DNA of 41,839 nucleotides from a virus: positions 1-41,839 of the IMG/VR virus record IMGVR_UViG_3300025011_000086. One strand, given 5' to 3'. The notes beneath the pieces are model-generated. The model was not told where the DNA came from. It saw only the letters and a program-made list of their open reading frames with translations, and did not search any database. The stretch's first letter is position 1; each line of letters begins with the position of its first letter. Shown piece by piece: positions 4,346-41,839 of this stretch. A program made the position numbers and the translations under genes.

Positions 4346-5740
4346 ATGCAAAAACCACGCAGCATCTGGCAACGAGTGAAAGAGCTGATTCCGTTTTCGA
4401 ATCGGTTCACGTTCTTCTCCAACTATCCGACGTTTCATACTGTCTGGATGCACAGCGACCCGGAGTCGTTTGCTGAGAAGGGCTACGCTGAGAATGTCTA
4501 CGTATTCTCGGCGATCAGGCAGATCACGACAAAGTGCGCGGCCATCCCCTGGCGGATCTACAACATCACGAATGGGAAAGCGCTCGCCCGGTTCAAATCG
4601 CTCGACGGGAAATCAAGAGCGTCTGAAGAAGGTCGCCGCCTGAAGGATGAGGCACTCGAAGCCAACGACACACATCCACTCAACGACCTGTTTTACAAGC
4701 CGAACTACCTGCAGAATTGGAGTGAGTTCGTGGAGAGTGTGATTGCCTTCAAGCATATCATGGGCAACGCGTTCATCTGGGGCGGCCGTCTCGACACGGG
4801 TGAAGAGAAGGGCAAGATCAAATCGATCTTCCCCATGTCGCCCTCGGTGGTGAAAGTAAAGGCGGGGCCGTACCCGGCGCCGATCGACGGCTACGAATTC
4901 CACAACAAGCCGGTCCCGAAGGAAGACGTGCTGCACCTCAGATACTTCGATCCACGGCTTACGGGCACGCGCATCGGACTCTCGCCGATCGAGGTGCTGC
5001 TAAAACAAGTGACGATGACCAACTCGTTCACCGAGACGAATACGACGCTCGTGCAGAATCTTTTCCGGATCCCGGGCATCCTCAGCATCCTGGGTCTGAA
5101 GTCAACCGACAAGGACAAGCGACAGCAGATTCGTGAACAGTTCATTGAGGACCAGGGGGGCGAGAACCGGGGCCTTCCAGTCATCGTCGGATCGGATATC
5201 AAGTGGCAGGATATCGCCTACAACCCGAAAGACGTCGACTGGATCAATGGCTTCAAGATCTCGGCGCAGCAGATCGCCATGGGTTTCGAAATGCCTCCGG
5301 AGCTGCTCGGTGACTCGGAGCATAAAACCTACAACAGCATGCCCGAAGCGATCCGGTATTTCTATTTCGGCAAGATCATCCCCGAGATGGCGGCATTGAG
5401 GGACGGACTTAATCAGTGGCTCGTGCCGCAATGGGAGCTGAAGCCGGATACGATCTGGATGGACTTCGACATCAACGGCATCGAGATCCTGCAGGAAGAG
5501 CGGACGGCTGTGATGGACCGGGCTGTGAAGGGACTCGACGGCGGACTCTACACGATCAACCAGGCGCTGAAGAAGATCGGAGAGCCTGAGATCGGAGACG
5601 AGGGTGAGGTCAGATTCATTCCGCTCGGGGCACAAATCTTCGGGCCGGGCGACCTGCTCGCGGGGACTCAGGGCAGCACTCCGCAAGAGCAGCTCGCCCT
5701 AGCGATCGAATATCTCAAGAAAGCGGGAGTCAGGCTTTGA
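4346..5740 (+). CDS. Phage portal protein (HK97 family)
   Basis: About 464 residues. ATG 4346 is chosen because AAGGG at 4332-4336 is then at good spacing; ATG 4337 and 4340 are also in frame. Family features are YAENVYVFSAIRQITTK near the N-terminus, HPLNDLFYKPN, GNAFIWGGR, LHLRYFDPR...GLSPIEVL and a C-terminal crown-type helix. It forms the dodecameric channel at one head vertex, docks terminase and later joins the connector. Its 3' end overlaps the next gene. Confidence 0.92.
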   Translation: MQKPRSIWQRVKELIPFSNRFTFFSNYPTFHTVWMHSDPESFAEKGYAENVYVFSAIRQITTKCAAIPWRIYNITNGKALARFKSLDGKSRASEEGRRLKDEALEANDTHPLNDLFYKPNYLQNWSEFVESVIAFKHIMGNAFIWGGRLDTGEEKGKIKSIFPMSPSVVKVKAGPYPAPIDGYEFHNKPVPKEDVLHLRYFDPRLTGTRIGLSPIEVLLKQVTMTNSFTETNTTLVQNLFRIPGILSILGLKSTDKDKRQQIREQFIEDQGGENRGLPVIVGSDIKWQDIAYNPKDVDWINGFKISAQQIAMGFEMPPELLGDSEHKTYNSMPEAIRYFYFGKIIPEMAALRDGLNQWLVPQWELKPDTIWMDFDINGIEILQEERTAVMDRAVKGLDGGLYTINQALKKIGEPEIGDEGEVRFIPLGAQIFGPGDLLAGTQGSTPQEQLALAIEYLKKAGVRL

Positions 5741-6552
5741 TCTGGACGCCGATCGAAAACAGATCTGAGGAACAGAAGCGGATGCTCTGGCTCGGCACAC
5801 AGGCCGAGCGCCAGCGCTACATCTACTGGGCGAAGGTGAAGATCGGCAAAGCTCTCCGGACGCAGGCGAAGCTTGCTGCCGATGCGATCGAGAAAGCTGT
5901 TGCTCCGGATGTTGCATCTCAGGCGGTCGGAGAAGCAATCGACAAATCAAAGCCGGTCATCACCGCGGTCTATCACCGGCTGTATATGATGATCGCTCCG
6001 GTCTTCGCCAGCAAGGTCCTCGCATCGATCAAGGCAACGCCGGCACAGGAGTCACAGTGGCACAGGCTCGTGAATGAATATCTGACATCGCCGGAGACAG
6101 AGAGCAAGATCGTCGGAATCAACGACGTCACGAAACGGCGCATCATGACGGTCATCGATGAGAACCAGGGCAAGAGCCTGATAGAGATTGCGAATGCGAT
6201 CAGGACGAACGTGATGCTTGATCAGATCTCCATGGGTCGGGCAATGGTGATCGCTCACACCGAGACTGTCACGGCCTCCAACTGGGGATCGCTCATGGGG
6301 GCGAAGACCTCGGGTGCGAACGTGAAGAAGCAGTGGATCTCGACCCGGGACAATGCGACACGGGGCCTCAAGCCGACAGACGAGTTCGACCACTTTCACA
6401 TGGACTCGAAGGGAGCGGAGCTGGACGGAGTGTTTGACGTGCCGATGCGCCCCTCCGGAGTCGAGCAGCTTCAGTTCCCCGGGGATCCGACAGGGAGCGC
6501 AGGGAACATCATCAATTGTCGTTGTACGATCGGTTATTTGAGGAAGGGTTGA
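5737..6552 (+). CDS. Minor head protein, SPP1 gp7/Mu F-like
   Basis: 271 residues, starting at TTG 5737 overlapping the portal stop (TTGA) with GGGAG upstream. The C-terminal half carries the family signature: AHTETVTASNWG, FDHFHMDSKGAELDGVF, LQFPGDPTGSAGNIINCRCTIGYL. The paired Cys near the end are typical. Such proteins sit with the portal in the procapsid and are often delivered with, or guide, the DNA. The order portal, minor head, protease, capsid is the standard HK97-type order. Confidence 0.88.
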   Translation: MIWTPIENRSEEQKRMLWLGTQAERQRYIYWAKVKIGKALRTQAKLAADAIEKAVAPDVASQAVGEAIDKSKPVITAVYHRLYMMIAPVFASKVLASIKATPAQESQWHRLVNEYLTSPETESKIVGINDVTKRRIMTVIDENQGKSLIEIANAIRTNVMLDQISMGRAMVIAHTETVTASNWGSLMGAKTSGANVKKQWISTRDNATRGLKPTDEFDHFHMDSKGAELDGVFDVPMRPSGVEQLQFPGDPTGSAGNIINCRCTIGYLRKG

Positions 6553-6555
6553 GCA

Positions 6556-7356
6556 ATGAAGAATCAATCTCGTTTCGAGCAACTGGGCGATCTCTACCGG
6601 CGAAAGGGCATGGCGACGCATCAGCATTGCGAATTGAAGTCCATGGTCAAAGACGTCGACACAAAGAACGGGATCATCACCGGCTACTTCTCGGCCTTCG
6701 ACAACGTCGACTCCGACAATGAGATCGTGGTGCCCGGGGCATTCCGGCGCACGATCAGGGAGCGGGGGCCCGGCGGTTCCAAGCGCGTTGCGTTTCTTCG
6801 CCAGCATCGGCCGGATCTTCTCCTCGGCCGCCCCTCAGTGCTGAAGGAAGACAAGTTCGGGCTGTATTTCGAATCGACGATCAGCCAGACGAGCTACGGC
6901 AAAGACACCATGATCCTCTATCAGGATCAGGTGATCAACGAGCACAGTATCGGCTATGATGTGGTCAAGCAGGAGCGCACACAAGACAAACCGACCAGGT
7001 TGCTCGAGCTCAGACTCTGGGACGGTTCGGCCGTCACCTGGGGAGCGAACGATCAGACGCCGTTCCTCGGATTCAAGTCTGTGCAGGATTGGACAAAAGC
7101 ATTTGATCAGATCGACAGCATCAACAGGGCGCTCACCGACGCGGTAACGGATGACACGGCGATGCAGATGGAGATCTGGATCAGACAATTTCAACAGAGC
7201 ATGAAGGATTTCGTTCAGAGCCTGAATGCGGACGACTCGCAAGCAATTGCACTCGCCGCCGCATCGAAGGCCACGCGGTCAGAGATCGCTTCAGCGCTTC
7301 GCAAGCAACTAAGCGATATGGAGTCATTCACCAAACAGAAAGGGGTATCGTCATGA
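6556..7356 (+). CDS. HK97-type prohead protease
   Basis: 266 residues. The serine-protease motifs are visible: H84 in FLRQHRPDLLLGRP and S131 in NEHSIGYDV, followed by LLELRLWDGSAVTWGAND. The fold is the herpesvirus assemblin/U35 type. It cleaves the scaffold (delta) region from the capsid protein after prohead assembly. The C-terminal ~90 residues are helical and probably serve for incorporation. The stop overlaps the capsid start (ATGA). Confidence 0.9.
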   Translation: MKNQSRFEQLGDLYRRKGMATHQHCELKSMVKDVDTKNGIITGYFSAFDNVDSDNEIVVPGAFRRTIRERGPGGSKRVAFLRQHRPDLLLGRPSVLKEDKFGLYFESTISQTSYGKDTMILYQDQVINEHSIGYDVVKQERTQDKPTRLLELRLWDGSAVTWGANDQTPFLGFKSVQDWTKAFDQIDSINRALTDAVTDDTAMQMEIWIRQFQQSMKDFVQSLNADDSQAIALAAASKATRSEIASALRKQLSDMESFTKQKGVSS

Positions 7357-8795
7357 AGTACATCTTGCTGCTCATCATGCTGCTCGCCTTCGTTCCAATG
7401 GCGGGCGCAGCGTTCCACGAGTACCAGCTTCCGAAGACGATGAAGCTGTTCTGGATTCACACCACACTCACCTCGAAGTTCCATTTCGTCTGGTCTCTCA
7501 TCAAGACCTGGGTGCGGAGGGTCCCTGTGCCGTTTGCGTTCGAGGTCATTGACGAAACAGAGATCAAGACACTGCTGGAAAAGCAGAAGAAGGCATGGTC
7601 GGATATCTCTGTCAAGCTGACTGAAATCGAAGAGGCACAGAAAAAAGGTATCACGACTGCCGATCTGAAAAGGGAAATCGAAGACCGCCTGAAGGACTTC
7701 GGCAAACTCGCAGACGAAGCACGCGAAGCCCAGAAGAAGGAATTCGCAAAACGAGTCGACGAGCTCGAGATCAAGATCAAAGCGGGTCAGCTTATGGGTG
7801 TTGGACCTGTTGAGACGGCGGGAAGTATTATCGCCAAACACGAGTCGATCGTTGCTCTGCAAGGTAAGAACGTTCCGACCGGAGTGCGCCTCAGCTTTCC
7901 GCTGAAGTCGTTCGGCCGGAAAGACGTACTCGGCACAACTGGAAGCGCCGGCGATCTTGTTGTTCCGTTCCGTGTGCCCGGTATCATCCAGCCCGTTCCG
8001 AACCAACAGCTTCGTATCCGTGATCTGCTCGGAGTGACGCCGATCTCGACGCCTCTCCTCCAGTATGTCCGGTCGACGTTCTTCGGCTCCGATTCGGGAT
8101 CATCCGGACAGTTGACCGGAAACGCCGGTGTTGTCTCGGAGGGAAGCGAGAAGCCGAAGGCGGATCTGAAGTTCGAAGAGGCACAGGCTGTTGCCTCGAC
8201 GATTGCGACCTGGCTGCCGGCGTCGAAGCAGATCCTTGCCGACGCACCACTGCTCCGGAACTTCATCGACACACAGCTGCTGTATTCGGTGTTGCTCGAG
8301 GAAGAGCTTCAGATCCTCTACGGCTCGGGTGTTGCTCCGAACCTCGAGGGTATCACGCTCCTTGCCGGTGTCTTTACGCCAGTTGCCGGCGAGACCCGTA
8401 TCGATGGACTGCGCCGGATGATCGGCCAGGTAATGCAGGCCCGGTTCCCGGCGACGGGGTTTGTGGTCAACGGAATGGACTGGATGGAGGTCGAGCTTGA
8501 GAAAGATGGCAATCTGCGCTATCTGATCGGCGACCCCAACGCAGTGCTTGGAAGCCGCATCTGGGGGCTGCCCGTTGTGCAGTCTGAGTCCATGCTCCAG
8601 GGCAACGCCCTCTGTGGTGCCTACGGTCTGGGTGCGACGCTGTATGATCGGGAAGAGGCGAACGTCGCAGTCTCGGAATCACACGACAAGTTCTTCATCC
8701 AGAACATGGTCGCGATTCGCGCAGAAGAGCGCATCATGCTTCCGATTTTCCGGCCGCTGGCATTTGTCTACGGCGGGCTGCAGGCGTCAAGCTAA
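7353..8795 (+). CDS. Major capsid protein (HK97 fold) with signal-like N-terminus
   Basis: 480 residues. Residues 64-145 are a charged coiled coil typical of a scaffold delta domain; the HK97-fold part follows (GDLVVPFRVPGI, TGNAGVVSEGSEKPKADLKFEEAQAVASTIATWLPAS, PNLEGIT, VVNGMDWMEVELEKDGNLRYLIGD, DREEANVAVSESHDKFF). Unusually, residues 1-20 (MKYILLLIMLLAFVPMAGAA) read like a signal peptide or membrane helix. The start is supported by AAAGGGG upstream and ATGA coupling to the protease gene. The hydrophobic segment lies in the part expected to be cut off by the protease. The sugar cassette follows it. Confidence 0.92.
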   Translation: MKYILLLIMLLAFVPMAGAAFHEYQLPKTMKLFWIHTTLTSKFHFVWSLIKTWVRRVPVPFAFEVIDETEIKTLLEKQKKAWSDISVKLTEIEEAQKKGITTADLKREIEDRLKDFGKLADEAREAQKKEFAKRVDELEIKIKAGQLMGVGPVETAGSIIAKHESIVALQGKNVPTGVRLSFPLKSFGRKDVLGTTGSAGDLVVPFRVPGIIQPVPNQQLRIRDLLGVTPISTPLLQYVRSTFFGSDSGSSGQLTGNAGVVSEGSEKPKADLKFEEAQAVASTIATWLPASKQILADAPLLRNFIDTQLLYSVLLEEELQILYGSGVAPNLEGITLLAGVFTPVAGETRIDGLRRMIGQVMQARFPATGFVVNGMDWMEVELEKDGNLRYLIGDPNAVLGSRIWGLPVVQSESMLQGNALCGAYGLGATLYDREEANVAVSESHDKFFIQNMVAIRAEERIMLPIFRPLAFVYGGLQASS

Positions 8796-24665: not shown

Positions 24666-24992
24666 ATGACAGATCTCGACGTTGAACAGCCGAAGGAGTA
24701 TACCCGGCTCCAGCGGTTCCTTTACGATAGCAAGAGGCATGTGCTGCCCTTGCTAATCCTCATCCTTCCACTCCTGGCGCTCGTGATCTTTGCCGACCCG
24801 GTTTGGCTCCAGGATACGCTCCACGTCGTCATGACAGCCATTCCCAGGATAGGCGTCCTCGTAGCTGGCTGGTTGCTCATAATGACGTTCGTCTTCCCAA
24901 AGCTTGGCCTTCAGAACAGGATCAAAGATGACCCGCTTGCCGTTGCTGTTTTTGCTGGCTTGCTTCTCCTCAGTATTGCCATCACGCTTTGA
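24666..24992 (+). CDS. Three-TM holin candidate
   Basis: 108 residues from ATG 24666 (GAGG upstream); an earlier in-frame ATG at 24633 lacks a ribosome site. The N-terminal ~25 residues are charged (MTDLDVEQPKEYTRLQRFL), followed by three hydrophobic segments (VLPLLILILPLLALVIF, IGVLVAGWLLIMTFVF, LAVAVFAGLLLLSIAITL). Size, topology and location directly before the lysozyme gene make it the best holin candidate. It overlaps the lysozyme start by 65 bp. Confidence 0.7.
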   Translation: MTDLDVEQPKEYTRLQRFLYDSKRHVLPLLILILPLLALVIFADPVWLQDTLHVVMTAIPRIGVLVAGWLLIMTFVFPKLGLQNRIKDDPLAVAVFAGLLLLSIAITL

Positions 24993-25566
24993 GGCCCGGT
25001 TCGCTTTTCGCTGGGATGCTCACCTCAGAGCCTGCGTCGATTCCGTTTACGGTATCACGGACAACCGGGCTCTCGATCGGCTCGCGCAGCTTTATTGTGA
25101 GAGCGCTTTCAATCCTCGAGCGGTGTCCGATTATGGCGGATGGAAGAAGGCGAAGCTCGACACCCTGACGGCACTTCTCACGGGCAAAGGGGCCGGCGGC
25201 CTTGCTCAGTTCATCTGGCAGACGGCGAAGCGATACGGTGCTGATTCTGTCCAGATGCTCTTCGATCCGCTCTGGTCGATCAAAGCCGAGTGCCGATATA
25301 TGAAGGGCATCTCTCGATATCTCGCAACGACGCGCAACCCCAAGGCTCGGCGTGCTCTCATGATCGATCGGAAGTTCGGGGAGCTCTGCGCAACGGCTGG
25401 CTACAACACCGGAGAAGGCAGGATCAGGGACAGGCTCAACAGGTATGGAGCAAACTGGCAGAGTATCGGTTCTTCAATCTTACCCGAGCCGAGGCTCTAC
25501 GCTGAAAAAATAGCCCTGGTTAGCACACAGATGCGCTTAGAGGCGCGTTGGAGGGCTCTGCTATGA
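24928..25566 (+). CDS. SLT-type lytic transglycosylase (endolysin) with signal sequence
   Basis: 212 residues from ATG 24928 (AGGA six bases upstream; within the holin gene). It starts MTRLPLLFLLACFSSVLPS, a signal or anchor segment, so export by the Sec route, possibly as a signal-arrest-release enzyme, is likely. The SLT motifs are AQLYCESAFNPRAVSDYG (the Glu is the expected catalytic residue), AGGLAQFIW, and later AGYNTGEGRI. It would cut the glycan strands of the wall at the end of infection. Confidence 0.88.
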   Translation: MTRLPLLFLLACFSSVLPSRFEARFAFRWDAHLRACVDSVYGITDNRALDRLAQLYCESAFNPRAVSDYGGWKKAKLDTLTALLTGKGAGGLAQFIWQTAKRYGADSVQMLFDPLWSIKAECRYMKGISRYLATTRNPKARRALMIDRKFGELCATAGYNTGEGRIRDRLNRYGANWQSIGSSILPEPRLYAEKIALVSTQMRLEARWRALL

Positions 25567-26194: not shown

Positions 26195-26217
26195 GGTTCA
26201 AGTCCTGCCCCCGCTAC
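26195..26217 (+). other. attP core: 3' end of a tRNA gene
   Basis: GGTTCAAGTCC followed by TGCCCCCGCTAC. It reads as the T-loop (TTCAAGT) and 3' acceptor strand of a tRNA, without the rest of a tRNA. Temperate phages that integrate in tRNA genes carry such a 3' fragment so that insertion restores the gene. It lies beside the integrase 3' end and between two arm-type repeats. Confidence 0.75.
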
Positions 26218-26233
26218 TACTTTTCCTTAATAA

Positions 26234-26285
26234 AAACCCTGATTTTCGCTTGCTGTAAGTGATATGCAAGCGGCTTTCAGGGTTT
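26234..26285. terminator. Bidirectional terminator between lysis genes and integrase
   Basis: AAACCCTGA (26234-26242) pairs with TCAGGGTTT (26277-26285), and inner CGCTTGC pairs with GCAAGCG. It is followed by T-rich sequence in both directions (CTTCTTTTT on +, TTTTTATT on -), as expected for a shared terminator of convergent genes. It overlaps the last bases of the integrase gene. Confidence 0.8.
26253..26270 (+). repeat. Arm-type integrase repeat, copy 2
   Basis: CTGTAAGTGATATGCAAG, 16/18 identical to copy 1. It falls in the inner loop and stem of the hairpin at 26234-26285. Confidence 0.7.
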
Positions 26286-27308
26286 CTTCTTTTTACGGGG
26301 GAGATGGAGGAGGTTCATGTCGCTCCGGATGGACGCACTGACGGGGTGAGTATACTTGAGGGTGGTAGCGTAGCTGGAGTGTCCCATAAGCTCCTGCAGG
26401 TTGCGCTGTGCGGCCCCGTGGCTGCCTAACCAGGTGCCGAAGGTGTGACGGAGAGAGTGGATCCGGACGTTGCGTTTGAGGCCCGTCTTTGCGACGGCCC
26501 GTTTGAAGCGGTTGTAGAGTGCGCTCCCGGTGAGTGGTATCAGCCTGCCGTCATTTCCTGCCCGTTTTATCAGCCTTTTCAGCACGCCCCGCAGCTCATC
26601 ACTGATCGGGATCGCCCGGTAATTCGATTGTTTGAACTGACGGATTTTGAGGATCCGGCTGCTGAAGTCGATATCACCCCTCTGCACCTGCAGGCCCTCT
26701 TCCCGCCGGCAGCCGGTGAGGATGTAGAAGTCGATGATCTCGCGGAGGAATGGATCCTTGATTCCGGCGTGCAGTGCCCGGTAGTCATCCTCAGAGAGAT
26801 TGTCCGGCGGCCGCTTCTCTACCTTTGGTTTGGCCACCTTCGCACACGGATTGCCCCCAGCATAGCCCTCCTTTACAGCCCAGGCGAACAGTGTCGAGAA
26901 CGTTGTAAGATCGTTCCGGATCGACTTCTCCTGGACTCCCTTCTGGCGCCGGAACCTGACATAGTCTTCGAGCAGAGCTGGAGTGATCTTGGAGAGCCTC
27001 AAATCCCTGCCGAGGAAGCCCCCCAGGGCGTTGAACGCGAGGGTGTAGGTCCTCACAGTCCCGGGGCGCATCGAGCCTGCCTGCTTGTGGCGCAGGAACA
27101 GTCCGACAGCCTCTGACCAGGCGACGGACTTCACGGGTCCGGGCTTGATGCCATAGCTTCCCAGCAGCAGGTCGTTCTCTTCTTTCGCGCGTATCACCTC
27201 GGCAATCCGGGAGTTCTCCGTGCGGAGAGACTTCGCCGGGCGTCCCAGGTGAGCCGCATAGGAGAGATACCAGATACGCTTTCTTTTGTACTTCCAGACA
27301 AGTCCCAT
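26277..27308 (-). CDS. int: Tyrosine recombinase (phage integrase)
   Basis: 343 residues from ATG 27308 on the minus strand, one base after the stop of the next gene upstream; a longer frame to 27431 has a low-quality leader. An N-terminal arm-binding/SAM-like part (GTVRTYTLAFNALGGFLGRDL, RQKGVQEKSIRNDLTTFSTLFAWAV) precedes the catalytic domain: R in TGCRREEGL, HSLRHTFGTWLG (HxxR), LMGHSS and the nucleophile Tyr in LKYTH. It catalyses attP x attB recombination. The adjacent attP-like site supports function. Confidence 0.93.
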   Translation of the reverse strand: MGLVWKYKRKRIWYLSYAAHLGRPAKSLRTENSRIAEVIRAKEENDLLLGSYGIKPGPVKSVAWSEAVGLFLRHKQAGSMRPGTVRTYTLAFNALGGFLGRDLRLSKITPALLEDYVRFRRQKGVQEKSIRNDLTTFSTLFAWAVKEGYAGGNPCAKVAKPKVEKRPPDNLSEDDYRALHAGIKDPFLREIIDFYILTGCRREEGLQVQRGDIDFSSRILKIRQFKQSNYRAIPISDELRGVLKRLIKRAGNDGRLIPLTGSALYNRFKRAVAKTGLKRNVRIHSLRHTFGTWLGSHGAAQRNLQELMGHSSYATTLKYTHPVSASIRSDMNLLHLPRKKKKP

Positions 27309-27309
27309 G

Positions 27310-27567
27310 TCAGTTGGGGGGATGCTCCCTGTCGTACTCTTCGAGGGTAAGCTCTTTGATGAGTTCTGGTTGCTTTGAACCGGAGAATTCGACATACATC
27401 CGGACGTTTGTAGCAGGGAACGGCAGCCCACAAGCGGGGCAGTTCAGCATCCGCACAGCGAATACGCCAGTGTCTTCGGTCTCGGTTTCCCGGCCGCAAA
27501 GATGCATGCCGACGTAGGACATGCGGATCTCGAAGGCGAAGCCCTGAAGGTGTTTGGAGGGGAGCAT
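27310..27567 (-). CDS. Zinc-ribbon hypothetical protein (85 aa)
   Basis: It contains a CPACG knuckle (LNCPACGLPFPA), an acidic C-terminus (LIKELTLEEYDREHPPN) and an extra upstream Cys (MHLCGRE). The stop is one base before the integrase ATG, so the two are probably co-translated. The start could be ATG 27567 or ATG 27522. No function is recognised. It belongs to the minus-strand lysogeny block. Confidence 0.6.
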   Translation of the reverse strand: MLPSKHLQGFAFEIRMSYVGMHLCGRETETEDTGVFAVRMLNCPACGLPFPATNVRMYVEFSGSKQPELIKELTLEEYDREHPPN

Positions 27568-27573
27568 GGGGAA

Positions 27574-28128
27574 TTAGTTCGCTTTCATCCGCTGACGGAG
27601 AGCTGCTTCATCCATAGCCTTTGGCTCTTCAAGAACGGTATAGATGACCCTTTGTCCATCAGCAGATTCAATGCGGATCTTGAAGTCCGCATATCCAATG
27701 ATCTTTGATTGTTTAAGGTCGTAGGTGACATCAAGAAAGAACGCTGGTTTTGGGAATACCAGCGAGCCAAGCCAGGTGAATTCCGCCATATCAAACTCTC
27801 TGTAAACGCACTGCATTTTCTCCTCAACTACCCCCTTGTAGATCAGCTCCTTCAGATACCCCGTCGGACGATTAACATCCTCAATCGACCGGAAGACGAT
27901 CTTTGTTTCTTTCAAAATCGGCTCATTGTAACCGCTCTTATAAACCTGTTGGCGGGATGCCGGATCAGGCTTTCGCACTCCGATGGCCCATCGCACAATC
28001 GGATTACCCACAGATGCTTCAACGCTCTTCCCGACTTCGTACTGTTTCATCAGAAACGGCACGGGAGAGGAACAGCCACTCGTCACCCCCAGGAATAAAA
28101 TTGGAATAATTCTACCGAGCTTCTTCAT
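27574..28128 (-). CDS. Predicted lipoprotein (lysogenic conversion candidate)
   Basis: 184 residues with AAGGAGG upstream of ATG 28128. MKKLGRIIPILFLGVTSGCSS is a lipoprotein signal with the lipobox Cys at 19. The mature protein is globular, with a beta-rich region (AFFLDVTYDLKQSKIIGYADFKIRI). No family is recognised. Its location between repressor and integrase, read from the lysogenic strand, is where superinfection-exclusion or conversion genes are often found. Confidence 0.75.
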   Translation of the reverse strand: MKKLGRIIPILFLGVTSGCSSPVPFLMKQYEVGKSVEASVGNPIVRWAIGVRKPDPASRQQVYKSGYNEPILKETKIVFRSIEDVNRPTGYLKELIYKGVVEEKMQCVYREFDMAEFTWLGSLVFPKPAFFLDVTYDLKQSKIIGYADFKIRIESADGQRVIYTVLEEPKAMDEAALRQRMKAN

Positions 28129-28138
28129 GGTTGCCTCC

Positions 28139-28573
28139 TTATGTCCTCTTTCGTTTCCCCCGAAACCGGGCCTGCTTCTCCCCTACAGCAACAGCCGTTT
28201 CAACGAAAGTCTGATAAGCAACAGGCCCAAGTGCACGCTTTAACTTCTCGCGGTCACTGATGCACTGATCCAAATCGGCTGCTGTCCGGATCCCCCGATC
28301 CCTGAGCAGCTCCAGCATTTGTTGATCGTCCGCGCTGAGTGTCGGCTTTTCTTCCTTCTCTCCGGTCATCAGCCACTTCAAATCGCATCCTAATTCCCTG
28401 AGCTTGGCCTGCATCTTATTGCCTGGCACGCGGTCACCCACGAGATAATTCCGCAACGCTCCAGGATCCATTTCTAACGCCTCCGCATATCTTGTCATCC
28501 AGCCCCATGCCGTCCCAAATCTGGCCTGACCAAACTCCTTGAATCTGCTAGCTATTTGGGCGTTGCTAGGCAT
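28139..28573 (-). CDS. CI-like repressor (XRE-type HTH, no peptidase)
   Basis: 144 residues. The N-terminal HTH covers about 18-62 (WGWMTRYAEALEMDPGALRNYLVGDRVPGNKMQAKL, then CDLKWLMTGE, typical of phage repressors). The C-terminal half is a short helical region without the Ser/Lys peptidase of LexA/CI, so induction by RecA-stimulated self-cleavage is not expected. It is divergent from the Cro-like gene. No ribosome site lies before the ATG; a -10-like TATTAAT (28579-28585, minus strand) ends five bases before it, so it may be translated from a leaderless mRNA. Confidence 0.85.
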   Translation of the reverse strand: MPSNAQIASRFKEFGQARFGTAWGWMTRYAEALEMDPGALRNYLVGDRVPGNKMQAKLRELGCDLKWLMTGEKEEKPTLSADDQQMLELLRDRGIRTAADLDQCISDREKLKRALGPVAYQTFVETAVAVGEKQARFRGKRKRT

Positions 28574-28608: not shown

Positions 28609-28637
28609 TTGACAAATATGTTCAAATGTATTATACT
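28609..28637 (+). promoter_or_regulatory. Early rightward promoter
   Basis: TTGACA (28609-28614), 17 bases, TATACT (28632-28637): the -35 is a perfect sigma-70 box and the -10 has five of six matches. It points to the Cro-like gene and the early operon. The overlapping palindrome at 28609-28625 would let repressor block RNA polymerase. Confidence 0.85.
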
Positions 28638-30940: not shown

Positions 30941-31987
30941 ATGGGTCAGCCTACAAATCTACCGGCAACTCTGCCGAACCTGCCGACGGTCAAGTCGCAG
31001 GATCAATTGAAGCAAGCGCTTCAGCTCTTCGATTCCACGAAGTTCAATATCCTCGTTCCCGCCGCAATGAACTTCAGCTCGCCGATGCACAAGGTGGCCT
31101 TCGAACTCGTCTTCATCAACCCCGAAGTGGATGCAAAGAACAACGGCCCGGATATCTACAGCACGGACGGCGGGAAGACGTTCACCTTTCACGCCAAGGC
31201 CGCGAACAAGATCGCCGGAGCTGCCGGGATTAACTGGAACGATTCGAAAGCAGAAGAGGTCCAGTACGATACCGGCGGGCGTGTGAACACCGTGCAACAT
31301 CAGGTAATGTGGTCTATCAAGCGCCCAAACGGAACAACGCGAAGCGGAGTGACCACCGGGAGTTATAACTACGCCGAGGACTCTGCACGCTTTGGAAAAG
31401 CTCAGGCAGATTCACGCCGACACTTCGCCCTCCAGCTTGCCGAATCGAATGCAAAATACCGGGCCATCTTTGACGCCCTCGAAATGTTGCCGCGGCAGTT
31501 GAAGCGCGAGGACTTCGCCAAGCCTTTCGTTGTCCCCTGCATTATTGAGGACATCTCGGACATGATCAAGGACGATCCCGAGATGAAGCGCATGGTCGTC
31601 GCTCACTCGCTGGGAATCACTGATCAGATCTACGGTCCTCAGACTCAGCAGCGGGAGGCGAAGGTAGACCCGAACCTCATCCAGGGTGCACGGGCCGAGG
31701 TAGTGGATGATCCGAAGCCTGGCGTGACCGTTGCCGCTGGCGGTGAGCTGAAGTTCGATCTGAAAACCGAGACGGGCTACAAGGATAGCTGGGCCCTCAA
31801 GTCCACCGACGAGCGAGATGCTGAGCTGAAGCGGCTGCTCACAGTGAAAGCGGTTGAGTTTCCCGCCGGCACGATCTTCGGAGAATTGGCGGTCGCTCGC
31901 CAGGTGGATGCTCTGTGGTACTACAACGGTCTGCCGGCGCCGGATAAGAAGGCGCCGTTCCCCTGGGAGAAGGGAGGACAAGCCTGA
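30941..31987 (+). CDS. Putative ssDNA-annealing/recombination protein
   Basis: 348 residues with AGGAGGAG upstream. The centre has AANKIAGAAGINWND, QHQVMWSIKRPNGTTRSG, then SRRHFALQLAESNAKYRAIFDALEMLPRQLKREDFAKPFVVPCII. The pattern AKxRAIxxxL...KPFVVP recurs in a phage family next to recombination genes and resembles single-strand annealing proteins. It is directly coupled (TGATG) to SbcD- and SbcC-like genes, so a recombination role is likely. I cannot assign it to RecT, Erf or Sak with certainty. Confidence 0.55.
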   Translation: MGQPTNLPATLPNLPTVKSQDQLKQALQLFDSTKFNILVPAAMNFSSPMHKVAFELVFINPEVDAKNNGPDIYSTDGGKTFTFHAKAANKIAGAAGINWNDSKAEEVQYDTGGRVNTVQHQVMWSIKRPNGTTRSGVTTGSYNYAEDSARFGKAQADSRRHFALQLAESNAKYRAIFDALEMLPRQLKREDFAKPFVVPCIIEDISDMIKDDPEMKRMVVAHSLGITDQIYGPQTQQREAKVDPNLIQGARAEVVDDPKPGVTVAAGGELKFDLKTETGYKDSWALKSTDERDAELKRLLTVKAVEFPAGTIFGELAVARQVDALWYYNGLPAPDKKAPFPWEKGGQA

Positions 31988-33165: not shown

Positions 33166-33458
33166 ACGAGTTGCAAACAAAATTCGTCGCCCAGGCCAAG
33201 AAGCTCGAGGACCTCGCACGCCAGATCAAGCAGGCCAATCAGGACCTCTACAACGCCATGCGGGATTTGCCTTTGGGAGAGATGTTTCAGGATCCCGCTG
33301 ACGGCGTTGTCTACCAGGTCATCATCCCGAGCGGCACATTCGTTGAGTACAAGGCGCTCGGCTACATCCGCACGAAAAAAGAAGGGGAGACGAAGGGCTC
33401 GCTCTCGATGAAGGAAGCTGAGGCGGCCGGGTTTGTCCTCGGAGGGCCGAAGGCATGA
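33162..33458 (+). CDS. Small helical protein between SbcD and SbcC
   Basis: 98 residues, coupled at both ends by ATGA overlaps. The N-terminal half is a coiled-coil-like helix (LQTKFVAQAKKLEDLARQIKQANQDLYNAM), the C-terminal half a small mixed segment. No family is recognised. Being placed inside the SbcD-SbcC pair, it may be an accessory subunit. Confidence 0.7.
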   Translation: MNELQTKFVAQAKKLEDLARQIKQANQDLYNAMRDLPLGEMFQDPADGVVYQVIIPSGTFVEYKALGYIRTKKEGETKGSLSMKEAEAAGFVLGGPKA

Positions 33459-35869
33459 AGCCACTCAGTCTGAAACTACGTGGGGCCGTCGGGATTCACG
33501 ACGGCCTCGGACTGGACGATGTCTCGATCGACTTCGGGGGATTCCAATCCGGACTCATCGCGCTCGTCGGCCCAAACGGCTCGGGGAAGACGACGATCCT
33601 CGAGAACCTCCACCCGTACCTGCAGCTGGCGAGCCGTGAGGGTTCGCTCTCCAATCACTTCCGGCTCCGGGATTCCTACCGGGACTTCACGTTCGAGCTC
33701 GCCGGACACGTCTATCGATCCTACATCCTCATCGATGCGAAGACAGCGAAGACCGAAGCCTATCTCTATCGTGATGGCACGCCGCTGTCGGACGGCAAGG
33801 TCAACACCTACAAAGCCGAAATCGAGAAGCTGCTGGGCTCTCCGGAGCTCTTCTTCCGCAGTATCTTCTCCTGTCAGAACGCCGAGAGCATTACCTCCCT
33901 CACGGCCGGGAAGAGAAAGGAGCTCTTCCTCGAGCTGCTGGGGCTGCAGCGGTATGATCTCTATGCCGAGCACTGCAAGGTCCAGGCAGATGAAGTGGAA
34001 AAGGATATCGCCGGCCGACGTGGAAGGCTCGAGCAGATCGCCGCGCAGACCTCACGGGAGGCGGTTGTCGTCTCTGAGCTGGAGAACTGCCGGAAGGAAC
34101 TCGCAGTCGTTGAGGCGGACATAAAGATCGGGGAGACCCAGGTCAAGCTCAGGAGTGAGGAGATCGCCAACCGTGAATCCCGGGTTGCGGAGGACAAGGC
34201 GAAGCACACCATGGTGCATGACCTGGGGAACGAGGTGAGCGTACTCGAAGCCAAGAAGTGGAAGCTCGACAAGGACCACAAAGAGCAGCTGGAGAAACTC
34301 GGGCTGTCGAAGAAGGCTATCGAGGAGGAGATCAAGCGGAAGCAGCAGATCGTCGATCATAAGCACGAGATCGAGCAGAGCGTCATCCGGTTGCAGACTC
34401 TTCGACTGGAACTCAAGGATATCAACGAGCGCCGCGAGCAGGTCCTAGCGATCGAGCGGGAGCAGGAGAAGGGCCGGGAGAAATATCAAACCGCCCTCTC
34501 CGATTACAAGTTGGCCTGCGTTGCGATTGCCAACGAGCAGTCGGGACTCGAGCGGGAAAAGAAAAACCTGATTGAGCGATTCGAGAGCGATCTCCTCGTT
34601 TGCAGGCGCGAGCTGATGGAGGCACAACGCACGGCCGCTCTCGTCTCGGAGGTCCCTTGCAACACGGTTCCGGGACTGCCAGACCGCTGCAAGTTGTTAT
34701 CTACGGCAATCAACGCGAAGAATCTGATTAGAAGTATTGAGCTCAGAATGGGCGAATTGGGGGACCATGATTATCGATGGAGTAATGGACTCGGTGCTCT
34801 GGCAGCTCAGTATGAGACGAGTCGAACTCGGGCAGCGGAGCTAGTCGAACCCACAAACCACGTTGACGATCAGTTCGCCGGGCGCATTGCTTCTGTCGGC
34901 TTTGACCCCGCCAGACACCTCACCGTCTGCAAAGAGATCCAGACCCTCGAGGCGAAGAAGTGGGAGAGCCTGCTCGAGGAGCTCCGGGTTGCTGAGGCAA
35001 CGATCGAGGAGAAGCAGAAGGCTATCGCTGAGATCGCCGCCCGGGTGATAGAGACCGGCAACAAGCACCACATCGATGCGTTCAATCTCGGCCTCGAGGC
35101 CACGGAGAAGCGTGCGAAGTGGGAAGAGATCAAGGCAACACTCCTCGCGCCTGAGTTCTACGAACAGCTCCAGGTGCTCAGGAATGCAATCGTCATCGCC
35201 CAGGCTGAGCTGAAGGCTCTCACGGACAAGCGCTCGGGCATCGTCGGCGATATTCAGTTCCGCCAGGAGATGCTGAAGCAGCTGGATGAGGCAGAGGCGG
35301 AAGCCCGATCGATCACGGCCGACCTGCAGAAGATTCTCTCGCAGCTCGAAAACTGGCGGCTCCTGCAGCGGGCCTGCTCTAAGGACGGGATCCCGGCATT
35401 GGAGCTCGATGCGGCCGGTCCTGCCGTCTCACGCATCGCCAACGAGCTCCTGGCCTCGACGTTCGGCACCCGCTTCCAGATCTCATTCGAGACGACGAAG
35501 ATGTCGAAGGACAACAAGAAACAGCTGGAGACATTCGAGATCCGGGTCTACGGCGCCGACGGCGAGAAACGGATCGAGGATCTGAGTGGTGGGGAGAGAG
35601 TATGGATTGAGAAGGCCATCCAGGAAGCGATCGCAATCTACCTGAGTGAGAAGTCCGGGAAGGAGTACCTCACGAGCTACGCCGACGAATCCGACGGCGC
35701 CCTTGATCCGGACAACAAGCAGCACTTCCTCGATATGCTCCGGGAGTCGTTCAAGCTCGGACGCCGGCACTATACGTTCGTCATCACGCAGACGCCGGAG
35801 ATCTGGGGGCAGATACAGCAACGCGTTCACCTTGTGCCGGCTGAGGGTAGACTGGAATTCGTGTACTAA
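33455..35869 (+). CDS. SbcC/Rad50-like ATPase
   Basis: 804 residues. Walker A GPNGSGKT at 39-46, Q-loop IFSCQNAE, ABC signature LSGGERVWIEKA from 710, and Walker B YADESDGALD around 740-750. The long middle is coiled coil with a hook-like turn, CNTVPGLPDRCKLL, in which the two Cys are nine apart rather than the usual CxxC. With the SbcD-like partner it forms a chromosome-end processing machine, useful for recombination-dependent replication of phage DNA. Confidence 0.9.
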   Translation: MKPLSLKLRGAVGIHDGLGLDDVSIDFGGFQSGLIALVGPNGSGKTTILENLHPYLQLASREGSLSNHFRLRDSYRDFTFELAGHVYRSYILIDAKTAKTEAYLYRDGTPLSDGKVNTYKAEIEKLLGSPELFFRSIFSCQNAESITSLTAGKRKELFLELLGLQRYDLYAEHCKVQADEVEKDIAGRRGRLEQIAAQTSREAVVVSELENCRKELAVVEADIKIGETQVKLRSEEIANRESRVAEDKAKHTMVHDLGNEVSVLEAKKWKLDKDHKEQLEKLGLSKKAIEEEIKRKQQIVDHKHEIEQSVIRLQTLRLELKDINERREQVLAIEREQEKGREKYQTALSDYKLACVAIANEQSGLEREKKNLIERFESDLLVCRRELMEAQRTAALVSEVPCNTVPGLPDRCKLLSTAINAKNLIRSIELRMGELGDHDYRWSNGLGALAAQYETSRTRAAELVEPTNHVDDQFAGRIASVGFDPARHLTVCKEIQTLEAKKWESLLEELRVAEATIEEKQKAIAEIAARVIETGNKHHIDAFNLGLEATEKRAKWEEIKATLLAPEFYEQLQVLRNAIVIAQAELKALTDKRSGIVGDIQFRQEMLKQLDEAEAEARSITADLQKILSQLENWRLLQRACSKDGIPALELDAAGPAVSRIANELLASTFGTRFQISFETTKMSKDNKKQLETFEIRVYGADGEKRIEDLSGGERVWIEKAIQEAIAIYLSEKSGKEYLTSYADESDGALDPDNKQHFLDMLRESFKLGRRHYTFVITQTPEIWGQIQQRVHLVPAEGRLEFVY

Positions 35870-36139
35870 CCGTTGCGGTTGCTGTGGCGGAAGCGTCGTC
35901 AGTGGACGGCGAACTAAAGACGCGAATGCTGCGTGAGTGAATGACAGCTCCGGTATGCAAGCGACTGTCTCGAAAACTCTCAGGATGTTAGGGGCGCGAC
36001 TCGAAGCATCTGAGACGATAGCTCTTACTAAGCAGTGTTCAAGGTTCAGTGGCGCATACTTGCAAGGGCGAACGAAAAACCACTGAGTGCAGGTATCGAA
36101 TCCTGCCAGCGACCGCATTCATTTTTGACCGGAACATTG
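35870..36139 (+). other. 270-bp gap with stacked hairpins
   Basis: No convincing gene. Two inverted repeats stand out near the right end: CAGTGG...CCACTG (about 36047-36086) and GCAGG...CCTGC around TATCGAAT (about 36089-36106). The second resembles a tRNA T-arm but has an eight-base loop and no matching acceptor stem, so no tRNA is called. Structured leader RNA for the next gene is possible. Confidence 0.35.
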
Positions 36140-36553
36140 ATGGGCGCATTTCTCACAGAGCGCGTGCTGAAGGTCAGGGGCGGGAAGATCGAGTGTCCCG
36201 TCTACGCCGACGATGGCACGCAGGTCTTCGTCACGGTCGAGACGGTCCCAAAGAAACGCACACTGAAGGCCAACCGCTACTATTTCGGTGCGAAGGTGCG
36301 CAAGATTTCGGAGATGACCGGGATGAAGGTTCCGGACGTGCACGAATCACTGAAGGTCGCATTCAATCCGAAAGAGATACCGAACCTTCTGACCGGGGAG
36401 ATGGTGACGATCGGCGGCAGTACGCGGGAGATGACAAGCGAGGAGTTCAAAGTGTTCTCTGACAAGGCGGATGAAGTTCTGGAGTTCCTCAACGCCAAAT
36501 TCCCAACGCAAGAAGAATACTGGAAACGACTAGAGGAGAACCATGGACACTGA
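36140..36553 (+). CDS. Hypothetical phage protein (137 aa)
   Basis: Starts at ATG 36140; the first in-frame ATG (36049) lies in the structured gap and adds non-coding-like residues. MGAFLTERVLKVRGGKIECPVYADDG, KKRTLKANRYYFGAKVRKISEMTGMKVPDVHESLKVAFNP and a helical C-terminus. The YYFGxxV..I....G pattern is shared with recombination-associated NinB-type proteins, but weakly; I treat it as unknown. The stop overlaps the next gene by 11 bp. Confidence 0.6.
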   Translation: MGAFLTERVLKVRGGKIECPVYADDGTQVFVTVETVPKKRTLKANRYYFGAKVRKISEMTGMKVPDVHESLKVAFNPKEIPNLLTGEMVTIGGSTREMTSEEFKVFSDKADEVLEFLNAKFPTQEEYWKRLEENHGH

Positions 36554-36773
36554 GCTTGTGCTGAAGGTTATTCTGAAAAAGCATTTCAACATCGAACCGG
36601 AGCGCGTCACGCGAGAGACGAAGGTCGAGGAAGACCTGGGACTGGACGCGGTGGAACAATCAGAGCTTCAGGAGTTGCTGGAGACGGAACTGCGAATCAC
36701 TTTCAGTCCCTACGAGTGTGATAACATGGCGACGATTGGGGATTACCTTTTCGCAATCGAGAGGCAGCAATGA
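36543..36773 (+). CDS. Acyl-carrier-protein-like protein without the serine
   Basis: 76 residues, GAGGAG upstream. The pattern ETKVEEDLGLDAVEQSELQELLETELRITFSPYEC...TIGDYLFAIE follows ACP helix by helix (DLGxDSLxxxEL...EEEF.I.......TVGDxxxxI). The phosphopantetheine Ser of the DSL motif is replaced: here DAV, with Ala36. So it probably cannot carry an acyl arm and may instead act as a protein-binding decoy or regulator. It overlaps both neighbours. Confidence 0.75.
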   Translation: MDTELVLKVILKKHFNIEPERVTRETKVEEDLGLDAVEQSELQELLETELRITFSPYECDNMATIGDYLFAIERQQ

Positions 36774-37087
36774 AGCGCATAGTGGCAAACGCTGTAAAAA
36801 ACTCTCAGCAACGGCCCCTGTTCGATCCAAACGCCTCCATCCGGGCAGAGTATCGCCGGAGACTCCGGCCCCTCTTATGGCGTTTACGGCACGAACGGCC
36901 ATTGAGGCTAATCGCCAGGAAGCTCGGGATTTCTCACACGGCGCTGGCCTATATCCGGGACAATCCGGAGCGGCCGGTGACAAGAAAAACCATGCTCAAA
37001 ATCATACGCGCAACGGCCAAGCAACGGCGAAAGCACGCGCCCGAAGCATTGAGCTGGGCGATGACGTCACGATGTCTAGTAATCTAG
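36770..37087 (+). CDS. Small HTH-type protein
   Basis: 105 residues, ATG overlapping the previous stop. It is very basic, with a clear helix-turn-helix (PLRLIARKLGISHTALAYIRDNPERPVTRKTMLKIIRAT). It stops a few bases before the ribosome site of the ParB-like gene. A DNA-binding regulator of the replication block is the simplest reading. Confidence 0.65.
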   Translation: MKRIVANAVKNSQQRPLFDPNASIRAEYRRRLRPLLWRLRHERPLRLIARKLGISHTALAYIRDNPERPVTRKTMLKIIRATAKQRRKHAPEALSWAMTSRCLVI

Positions 37088-37098
37088 GAGGACAGGTC

Positions 37099-38757
37099 AT
37101 GAAGGAAGAAGTGCAGGTCGTAGCGATCGACAAGATCGACAAATCGAAAACAAACCCGCGGCAGTTCTTCGACCCCGCGGCAATGAAGGATCTCACCGAG
37201 AGCATAGCATCCCGTGGGATCGAGGATCCGCTCAAGCTCCGGCCGAAGGGTGACCGGTATGAATTGGTGGACGGTGAACGCCGGCTTCTCGCGGCCAAGG
37301 CTGCCGGGGCGAAAGAGGTCCCTGCGATCGTCCGGCCGTACACGGACGAGGAGGCAGTCGAGGTCCAGCTCATCTCGTTCACGCAGCGGGTTGACATCCA
37401 TCCGCTCGATGAGGCCGAGGCGTACGCTCAGCTCCAAGCGAAGCATTTTGTCATTGAGGAGATTGCGAAGAAGGTGGGGAAGGAGCGGTCCTACATCGCC
37501 AAGCGGCTCCAGCTCGTGACACTGATTGAGCCGGCGAAGAAGGCATTCAGGGAGAACAGGATCTTCCTGGGGCATGCCATCCTGATCGCACGGCTGCAGC
37601 CGAAGGACCAGGAGAAGGCGCTGGATGAGGCGATTGAAATGTCGGGAGAGTCCGACATGCCGATCAGCGTTGAATCTCTCGCCCAGTTCATCCGGCAGGA
37701 ATTCGAGCTCGATCTGCGGAAAGCCTCCTTCGACAAGAAGAACTCGCTCCTTGTCGAAGATGCCGGCAGCTGCACGAATTGCCCGAAGCGCTCCGGGTAC
37801 AACAAAGACCTCTTCAACGACATCACGGCGGCCGATCACTGCATGGATCCCGGATGCTTCGAGGCGAAGATGGGGGCGCACATCCAGATTCGCCTGGCTC
37901 AGTTGAAGGGTAAGGGCGAGACGGTTGTCCTGATCACTCCCGAGCTGCGCAAGCCGGAGGGGTACCCGGAGAGCATTACGACCCGGAGCTATTCTGTGGT
38001 GAAGGCTGGATCGTGCGGGTACACGAAGGCCGGCCTGGTAGTGGGGGGCCCGAGCCGTGGAAAGGTGGAGACGATCTGCAATGAGAAGACCTGCACGAAG
38101 CACGGGGGGAGGAATCCGCGCAGCGTCTCAAGCACGCCCAGCAAACCGAAATCTCCGGAGGCGCAGGAGAAGGAGCGGCTGAAGAAGATCAAGGATGACA
38201 TCGACCGGGATGTGGACGAGAAACTTCAAGATGCGCTGCTCCCCTTGATTGCAAAAGCACTCCCCGATCGACTGCGCCGGCAAGATCTTGAGCACGTTCA
38301 GAGGATGGCTGTTGGCGCTCTCTGGGGGAAATATGAGAAGAATATTCTGAAGATCATCGGGGTGAAGGGGGACCTGAGGAAATGGAGCGACAAGCAGCTC
38401 GCCAAAGTGACCATGCTCCTTCTTATCGGCGATCGTATCGAAAACGGCTACGAGCAAAACGCTGCCATCATCGAGGCGAAGAAACTCGGGATCGACGCGC
38501 CCTCGATCGAGAAGGGCATACGTGCCGAGGTGGAGAAGCTGTATGCGGAGGAGTTGAAATCCAAGCTTCAGAGGGCGGATGGGCCCACGAAGGACGTATG
38601 CCGGATCTGCAACTGCACGCCAACGAGTGCATGCGTTCTTACGGGCGGTCTCACCTGCGCTTGGACTGACAAGACTCACACGCTTTGCAACAATCCGAAA
38701 TGCCTGGCGGCCGATAGGAAGGCGAAGAAACCTGCCAAGAAGAAATCGAAGAAGTAG
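37099..38757 (+). CDS. ParB/Spo0J-like protein with C-terminal zinc domain
   Basis: 552 residues from ATG 37099, AGGAGG eight bases upstream; the frame is open further left but without a start signal. ParB N-terminal domain: VVAIDKIDKSKTNPR, and GERRLLAA at 59-66, the box that binds CTP in ParB. An HTH follows (VIEEIAKKVGKERSYIAKRLQL). The C-terminus has CRICNCTPTSACVLTGGLTC...LCNNPKC, a Cys-rich knuckle. No ParA is present. It may organise or protect replicating phage DNA, or regulate transcription, rather than partition a plasmid. Confidence 0.85.
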   Translation: MKEEVQVVAIDKIDKSKTNPRQFFDPAAMKDLTESIASRGIEDPLKLRPKGDRYELVDGERRLLAAKAAGAKEVPAIVRPYTDEEAVEVQLISFTQRVDIHPLDEAEAYAQLQAKHFVIEEIAKKVGKERSYIAKRLQLVTLIEPAKKAFRENRIFLGHAILIARLQPKDQEKALDEAIEMSGESDMPISVESLAQFIRQEFELDLRKASFDKKNSLLVEDAGSCTNCPKRSGYNKDLFNDITAADHCMDPGCFEAKMGAHIQIRLAQLKGKGETVVLITPELRKPEGYPESITTRSYSVVKAGSCGYTKAGLVVGGPSRGKVETICNEKTCTKHGGRNPRSVSSTPSKPKSPEAQEKERLKKIKDDIDRDVDEKLQDALLPLIAKALPDRLRRQDLEHVQRMAVGALWGKYEKNILKIIGVKGDLRKWSDKQLAKVTMLLLIGDRIENGYEQNAAIIEAKKLGIDAPSIEKGIRAEVEKLYAEELKSKLQRADGPTKDVCRICNCTPTSACVLTGGLTCAWTDKTHTLCNNPKCLAADRKAKKPAKKKSKK

Positions 38758-38763
38758 ATCCAG

Positions 38764-38844
38764 GGCGCCGTGGATGAAATGGCACAATCGCCGGGAGAGT
38801 GCACGTCTCGCCGGAACTTGCTGGTTCGAGTCCAGCCGGCGCTG
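38764..38844 (+). tRNA. tRNA-like element with enlarged anticodon arm
   Basis: Acceptor GGCGCCG (38764-38770) pairs with CGGCGCT (38837-38843), with one G-U. A D-arm with GG in the loop and a perfect T-arm GCTGG-TTCGAGT-CCAGC are present. The anticodon arm is 24 nt instead of 17: CCGG, GAGA, loop GTGCACG, TCTC, bulged G, CCGG. The loop would show GCA (Cys) after a U33. No 3' CCA is encoded. It is either an odd Cys tRNA or a tRNA mimic. Confidence 0.55.
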
Positions 38845-38873
38845 CAACTGATCAACGAGTCAGGAGCCAACCC

Positions 38874-41177: not shown

Positions 41178-41839
41178 TGAAAAAAATACCTGCGCACCAA
41201 TGGACCAATGAGAATGGGGAGGTGTTGATCCTCCGGTTCTCGGACAAAAACGGCAAGTCATATAATGGCTTTCAACATCCCATGACTGTGGGAGAATCGG
41301 TCGTCGAGCCGAAATGGAATGAGGCTGCGGTTTGCGGTGGTGGCATCCACGGCTGGCCGTGGGGTATTGGATTGGGTGAAGGCAAGGAGTGTGAGTGGGA
41401 GTCGCTCTGGCAAGTGTACGGAGCAAAACCGGAAGAGGTCGTTGGGGAGATCGAAGGCGGCCAGAAGTGCAAATTCAAAACCGGCACGCTGCGCTTCCTC
41501 GGAAAATGGGACGAAGCGATGAAGTTCATTCTCTCGGGCCAAATCAAATGGGTCGAGCAGTGGGCTGGAGAAAAACATGCGACGGGCGACAGGTCCGCCA
41601 GTTCAGCGACGGGCTACAGGTCCGCCAGTTCAGCGACGGGCTACAGGTCCGCCAGTTCAGCGACGGGCAACAGTTCCGCCAGTTCAGCGACGGGCGACAG
41701 TTCCGCCAGTTCAGCGACGGGCGACAGTTCCGCCAGTTCAGCGACGGGCTACAGTTCCGCCAGTTCAGCGACGGGCGACAGGTCCGCCAGTTCAGCGACG
41801 GGCTACAGGTCCGCCAGTTCAGCGACGGGCGACAGGTCC
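41177..41839 (+). CDS. N-terminal part of 27-bp-repeat protein (DUF7666-like)
   Basis: Partial: 221 codons to the window end, where the last base completes a codon. The first ~134 residues are a unique domain (HQWTNENGEVLILRFSDKNGKS..., AAVCGGGIHGWPWGIGLGEGKECEW...). The chain then enters ATG[DYN][RS]SASS repeats, at least nine full copies plus part of a tenth. In frame it continues at position 2 of the window after a gap of 17 + 27n bases. The architecture (domain, solenoid-like repeats, tail) belongs to the DUF7666-type family. The function is unknown. Confidence 0.8.
   Translation, partial: MKKIPAHQWTNENGEVLILRFSDKNGKSYNGFQHPMTVGESVVEPKWNEAAVCGGGIHGWPWGIGLGEGKECEWESLWQVYGAKPEEVVGEIEGGQKCKFKTGTLRFLGKWDEAMKFILSGQIKWVEQWAGEKHATGDRSASSATGYRSASSATGYRSASSATGNSSASSATGDSSASSATGDSSASSATGYSSASSATGDRSASSATGYRSASSATGDRS
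41579..41839 (+). repeat. 27-bp tandem repeat array, right part
   Basis: Unit GCGACGGGC-NAC-AGK-TCCGCCAGTTCA. All bases are identical from unit to unit, including synonymous sites, except the first base of codon 4 (G, T or A: Asp, Tyr or Asn) and the third base of codon 5 (G or T: Arg or Ser). Three more full units lie at 1-82. Confidence 0.95.

Follow-up and report, generated by a model that had tools for sequence, protein, structure and literature searches.

Ltp of phage TP-J34 is the product of a lysogeny-module gene that is transcribed in the prophage, and it prevents DNA injection, according to the part of the source that was available (PMC3952083). In the TP-J34 record int, ltp, orf3 and CI are oriented in one direction; like the lipoprotein gene described below, ltp belongs to the lysogenic strand and has the repressor gene (CI) to one side and the integrase gene to the other. 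Differences are an annotated terminator and promoter between ltp and int, and the Gram-positive host. The target of Ltp is reportedly the tape measure protein, as worded in a 2013 title by Bebeacua. Llp of T5 and Cor are also superinfection-exclusion phage lipoproteins, but they are much smaller than the protein studied here. For Llp, with approximately 61 residues, the accessible sections of one source describe a periplasmic protein that makes FhuA unable to bind phage and a gene, llp, that adjoins the receptor-binding gene (PMC9586334). In E. coli, phages are also excluded by Lpp021 and Lpp010, two lipoproteins from mEpimmI coliphages, with phage lambda among those affected by Lpp010, as stated in an excerpt of PMC11893012; the two proteins have 72 aa and 82 aa, respectively, and their genes are found beside that of host-specificity protein J. 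Repressor-linked cargo has been described for prophage BTP1, where bstA lies downstream of cI and is transcribed from the cI promoter, and in lambdoid prophages, according to the same partly available source, a region beside the repressor commonly serves as an accessory site (PMC7067206). In the available portion of PMC6193963, lipoproteins are mentioned in general terms only.

The DNA analysed here, referred to as the window, is a single virus record of 41,839 bases. It contains a block of four genes on the minus strand, encoding a repressor, a lipoprotein, a CPACG protein and a tyrosine integrase, with gaps of 10, 6 and 1 nt. The repressor (28139-28573, minus strand; 144 aa) has a CI-like N-terminal helix-turn-helix (HTH), with phrog_2328 as the best match among PHROG repressor families (5.3e-6). 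The sequence-only reading had described lysogenic-strand genes for a lipoprotein and a CPACG protein, flanked by repressor and integrase, which was confirmed with exact coordinates of 27574-28128 and 27310-27567, both on the minus strand. A Shine-Dalgarno sequence for the lipoprotein, AAGGAGG, could be read directly at 28134-28140 (minus strand), where it overlaps the repressor stop codon. The integrase gene (26277-27308, minus strand; 343 aa; PF00589 1.2e-25, phrog_1 1.9e-58) is overlapped at its end by a terminator-like hairpin with a subsequent U run (26232-26287, minus strand), for which -25.7 kcal/mol and a z of -6.03 were calculated, with equally stable structures in 0 of 200 shuffled sequences. 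Beyond the hairpin, a sequence resembling a tRNA 3' end (26195-26219, plus strand) was noticed by eye; this possible core may represent attP, and ARAGORN detected no tRNA at these positions. Upstream of the repressor, a divergent, rightward sigma-70-like promoter was assigned by consensus match only (28609-28637, plus strand; TTGACA-17-TATACT, 11/12). Nothing convincing was found for a leftward promoter, with a single 9/12 match at 28720-28692; chance alone would give approximately three promoter-like sites in the scanned region. A simple scan from repressor to integrase gave no terminator-like site on the minus strand, which is weak evidence because the same scan overlooked the long hairpin after the integrase. 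From this arrangement we infer that the four genes would form one leftward lysogenic operon with the lipoprotein co-transcribed with the repressor. What points to expression of the lipoprotein in the lysogen is the gene anatomy, namely a start 10 nt past the repressor stop codon.

A clear lipobox had been claimed for the lipoprotein (184 aa), and it was indeed found as VTSGC with Cys19 as the predicted lipidation site, preceded by a predicted signal peptide of 18 aa (28075-28128, minus strand) and followed by Ser at position +2. With the pattern used, such an N terminus occurs in 2 of the 160 window ORFs of at least 80 aa in all six frames. That the gene is real follows from the homology of its C-terminal domain to phrog_1353 (E 2e-13). 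This conserved domain comprises residues 91-168 (27625-27858, minus strand) with the motifs YREF, PAF, YDL and IGY. As the match covers only positions 157-225 of the 230 in the phrog_1353 profile, and the middle region is absent in our family alignment (A2, see below), the window lipoprotein shares the phrog_1353 domain and is not a full-length member. It is also strongly diverged from the family, with a best identity of 34% and an end branch of 5.74 in the tree. Its gene has a GC content of 0.48 vs 0.56 for the window. Pfam, NCBIfam and PADLOC returned no family for this protein, and viral-contig scans with single window proteins as queries were unproductive. An AlphaFold2 model built from 73 sequences (mean pLDDT 78.7, low-confidence stretch at residues 61-84) consists mainly of beta strands after the signal peptide; a fold search of this model against PDB and BFVD gave nothing at E 0.001, and VIA reached a best Z of 4.8, too low for use. 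Spanins are smaller than this protein, and an o-spanin was rejected due to this size, the location on the lysogenic strand and the large distance to the endolysin gene (24904-25566).

The CPACG protein (27310-27567, minus strand; 85 aa) is probably the product of a real gene. Its ORF leaves only 7 nt uncovered between the lipoprotein and integrase genes, and its GC3 is 0.70 vs 0.70-0.76 for the integrase, capsid and portal genes and the gene at 30941-31987; among 2000 first-order Markov sequences built from the same stretch, 30 contained a complete ORF of this length. A zinc ribbon has two Cys pairs. The three Cys found here, one CPAC pair and a further Cys within HLC, together with the missing family match and the missing PDB fold match leave the zinc ribbon proposed by the sequence-only reading not established; judged from its residues, the protein may nevertheless have a metal site of three Cys and one His. 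Across four libraries nothing exceeded the curated cut-offs or E 0.1, and tblastn in phages was unproductive. Structure models were built from one sequence, with confidence in one of five (80.7; 43-45 for the rest), and comparison with PDB gave no fold match at E 0.001. Nothing in the evidence connects the CPACG protein to exclusion.

The function of phrog_1353 is unassigned in PHROGs, with relatives in Acinetobacter phage Ab1656-2, Moraxella phage Mcat28, an E. coli phage-like plasmid and Fels-2, and our literature search did not find the family discussed, under that name or otherwise. A tblastn search (E 0.01) detected relatives in six phage records (of 50,697) and nine plasmid records (of 72,556), and, with an E. 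coli family member as query, in 34 phage records. An alignment-based scan led to 181 confirmed stretches in viral contigs, of which 80 were kept, and to 68 genome loci; near-copies are frequent among the 80 viral loci, with 28 in one cluster. The 142 proteins of at least 180 aa were viewed as 76 cluster representatives (23 viral, 53 genome), 72 of which were aligned with the window protein in A2, omitting L094, L097 and L149 for odd length and L042 for no stated reason. Like the window lipoprotein, the phrog_1353 proteins have the homologous C-terminal domain and a lipobox and are phage-borne; they differ in being mostly 216-245 aa long with the middle region present, and in their frequent location near a tape measure gene instead of in a lysogeny block. 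With start codons picked to allow a lipobox, one was found in all viral relatives except two cut by contig ends (78 of 80), and in 58 of the 66 genome relatives uncut at the 5' end (68 found). Pfam added only the generic attachment model LPAM_1, in 2 of 73 family members. The residue after the lipobox Cys decides on outer-membrane placement (the +2 rule). A lipobox is present in 70 of the 76 representatives; in these, the residue was Ala in 37, Thr in 22, Val in 10 and Ser in one, and never Asp, which suggests an outer-membrane location.

When the family profile was aligned to Ltp by hhalign, 24 columns were matched, all in or around the signal peptide, and the mature proteins remained unaligned. 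No PDB chain of Llp or Cor was hit by the family profile at E up to 1, nor was one among the listed Foldseek and VIA matches. Phages mEp021 and mEp010 were absent among the 34 phage records matched by the E. coli family member, and assignment of the window lipoprotein to the Lpp021/Lpp010 family was rejected due to size and the lack of a match.

Our best reading, with about even weight for and against it, is that the protein would be an outer-membrane lipoprotein that is made in the lysogen and blocks the entry of other phages, in the manner of Ltp or Llp. All four genes of the block would be transcribed leftward as one lysogenic operon; after export and lipidation at Cys19, the lipoprotein would reside in the lysogen outer membrane, facing the periplasm; and superinfecting phages would be blocked there, most likely at DNA injection, via the incoming tail or tape measure. 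Outer-membrane location and exclusion are predicted from the features described above. The tape measure as target is the weakest step, with injection deduced solely from the tape-measure neighbours of the relatives. When neighbouring genes were called by a simple ORF picker, a same-strand ORF of at least 750 aa was located not more than three genes away in 15 of 23 viral and in 7 of 53 genome representatives, and all four of the large neighbours examined matched tape measure families. In the Acinetobacter phage Ab1656-2 the family gene lies two genes ahead of the tape measure gene, and in the E. coli phage-like plasmid it immediately follows it. A different place, between replication gene A and portal gene Q, was found in Fels-2 and in Klebsiella phage 4LV2017, the latter with a reverse transcriptase nearby. 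In the window phage the lipoprotein gene does not adjoin the tape measure gene.

These neighbourhoods also bear on a mode of exclusion we regard as unlikely, in which the lipoprotein would bind an outer-membrane receptor from the periplasmic side instead of stopping injection. Llp with FhuA is the precedent, the small lipoproteins Lpp021 and Lpp010 exclude coliphages, at least in the parts of the sources available, and the +2 residue is compatible with the outer membrane. However, Lpp021 and Lpp010 are small and encoded beside J, and llp lies beside a receptor-binding gene (same partial sources), whereas the family of the window protein is often encoded near a tape measure gene. We consider it similarly improbable that the lipoprotein alters the host envelope to an end unrelated to phage exclusion, or that it serves a general envelope function acquired by some phages. 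For 46 of the 53 genome representatives no neighbour of tape-measure size was found, some of these loci being near contig ends. Chromosomal relatives occur without obvious phage genes, and some (L104, L111, L152) are beside genes read by eye as housekeeping, which would fit such a role, as would the low GC content, suggesting a recent arrival of the gene in the window phage. Against it stand the tape-measure-size gene near 15 of 23 viral representatives and a DNA methyltransferase that occupies the corresponding slot in a sibling phage.

Relatives of the window lipoprotein share the linkage to a repressor: in three other loci, the lipoprotein gene is immediately preceded by a co-directional repressor-like gene. 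In L109 (Pigmentiphaga) this gene encodes a CI-like repressor (phrog_4, 7.2e-48) and stops 120 nt short of the lipoprotein gene. L029 likewise has a CI-like repressor (phrog_4, 8e-27), whose gene runs 17 nt into the lipoprotein frame when the script-chosen TTG is taken as start, or stops 10 nt short of it if the next ATG is used. The weakest of the three is L098, where an HTH gene of 118 aa (phrog_3, 8e-6) ends 10 nt upstream and no recognised phage genes are found around it. The underlying scan comprised 88 proteins (60-450 aa) encoded on the same strand one or two genes upstream of the 76 representatives, and among the 25 commonest families listed, phrog_8 and phrog_3 were matched by 4/88 and phrog_4 by 3/88; as candidates were then chosen by eye and ten proteins tested, the number of repressor-linked loci is at least three. 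An upstream HTH gene in L055 was read as an antitoxin and excluded from this count. It is one of a pair of small genes (2457-3247) that precede the family lipoprotein gene, matching phrog_5393 and, for the HTH protein, phrog_5119, and a similar pair in Ab1656-2 is annotated as DUF4258 and HTH; the pair in L055 is perhaps a toxin-antitoxin pair. L029, L109 and L098 fall into different tree branches, a hint of separate moves. For the four repressor-linked rows the tree requires two changes, of which the starred branches force only one, and judged from these sequences the repressor-linked members may share one origin. The window row itself cannot be placed in the tree due to its long end branch.

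Sibling phages allowed a comparison of the region behind the repressor. L161 and L163 (one contig) and L164 were 100% identical to the window over the compared stretches, except for the repeat joint of L161. This joint concerns a tandem repeat array (27 nt, 9.7 copies) at the window end (41579-41839); in L161, the same phage in another assembly, the array is followed by the sequence that starts at window position 1, which makes a circular or circularly permuted genome probable. The window also carries an SbcC-like gene (phrog_77), a ParB-like gene (phrog_3264) and, at 38764-38845, a tRNA-Cys, all within 33455-38845. More distant siblings are L162, with a protein 85% identical to the product of 30941-31987, and the record behind L166 and L168, with a major capsid protein 70% identical to that of the window. 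Neither lipoprotein nor CPACG protein was found in the five sibling records searched, four of which are fragments of 15-29 kb; as two of these four are identical to the window phage over the 7.4 kb compared, the telling absences are those in L162 and L168, where tblastn of the repressor regions at E 1 showed no lipoprotein and, for the CPACG protein, matches at chance level only. Instead, the repressor of L162 is followed by genes for what by eye is a small membrane protein (PADLOC PycTM, 3.1e-4) and for a DNA methyltransferase (5611-7362; phrog_67 9.2e-65, PADLOC MTase_II 1.5e-56). The C terminus of this methyltransferase showed, by eye, a possible Mrr-like nuclease domain. In L168 only a C-terminal integrase part (5507-5926), 74-75% identical to that of the window, is located beside the repressor. 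The differing sibling content and the lower GC content of the lipoprotein gene show that the slot after the repressor holds variable cargo. In BTP1, where cargo is likewise found downstream of cI, BstA is presumably not a lipoprotein. The repressors of L162 and L168 are 48% and 40% identical to the window repressor over residues 1-77 and 6-77 only, respectively, and have a LexA/UmuD-like C-terminal domain (phrog_811) that is absent from the window repressor, so that induction of the window phage may not depend on RecA. This missing domain and the integrase remnant of L168 could also reflect a recombination scar that left functionless foreign genes as passive cargo, but intact ORFs, a good Shine-Dalgarno sequence, tight spacing, conserved family residues and the intact hairpin make such decay very unlikely.

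A possible role of the window lipoprotein in phage exclusion, which the sequence-only reading suggested for genes at this place and which is plausible, is in part supported by the TP-J34-like gene order, the repressor-linked relatives, the relatives near tape measure genes and the exchange of cargo among siblings. Counted against it were the divergence of the protein and its absent middle region, the lack of a tape-measure-size neighbour for most genome relatives, the lack of a fold match, the Ltp alignment confined to the signal peptide and the lack of a convincing leftward promoter. For the family as a whole, it is conceivable, though on balance rather doubtful, that lipoproteins of the phrog_1353 type represent, in Gram-negative hosts, a widespread equivalent of Ltp that blocks entry by acting on the tape measure or on injection. 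Often carried beside the tape measure gene, they would have moved, perhaps repeatedly, into the repressor operon and would be made in the lysogen there. The proposed exclusion role and the genomic place are known from other phages, and the lipoprotein family is an uncharacterised one; the published Gram-negative exclusion lipoproteins we encountered are much smaller than members of phrog_1353. In phages, family genes are found in two places, either close to the tape measure gene or behind the repressor, and this suggests that the family takes part in superinfection exclusion in Gram-negative hosts.
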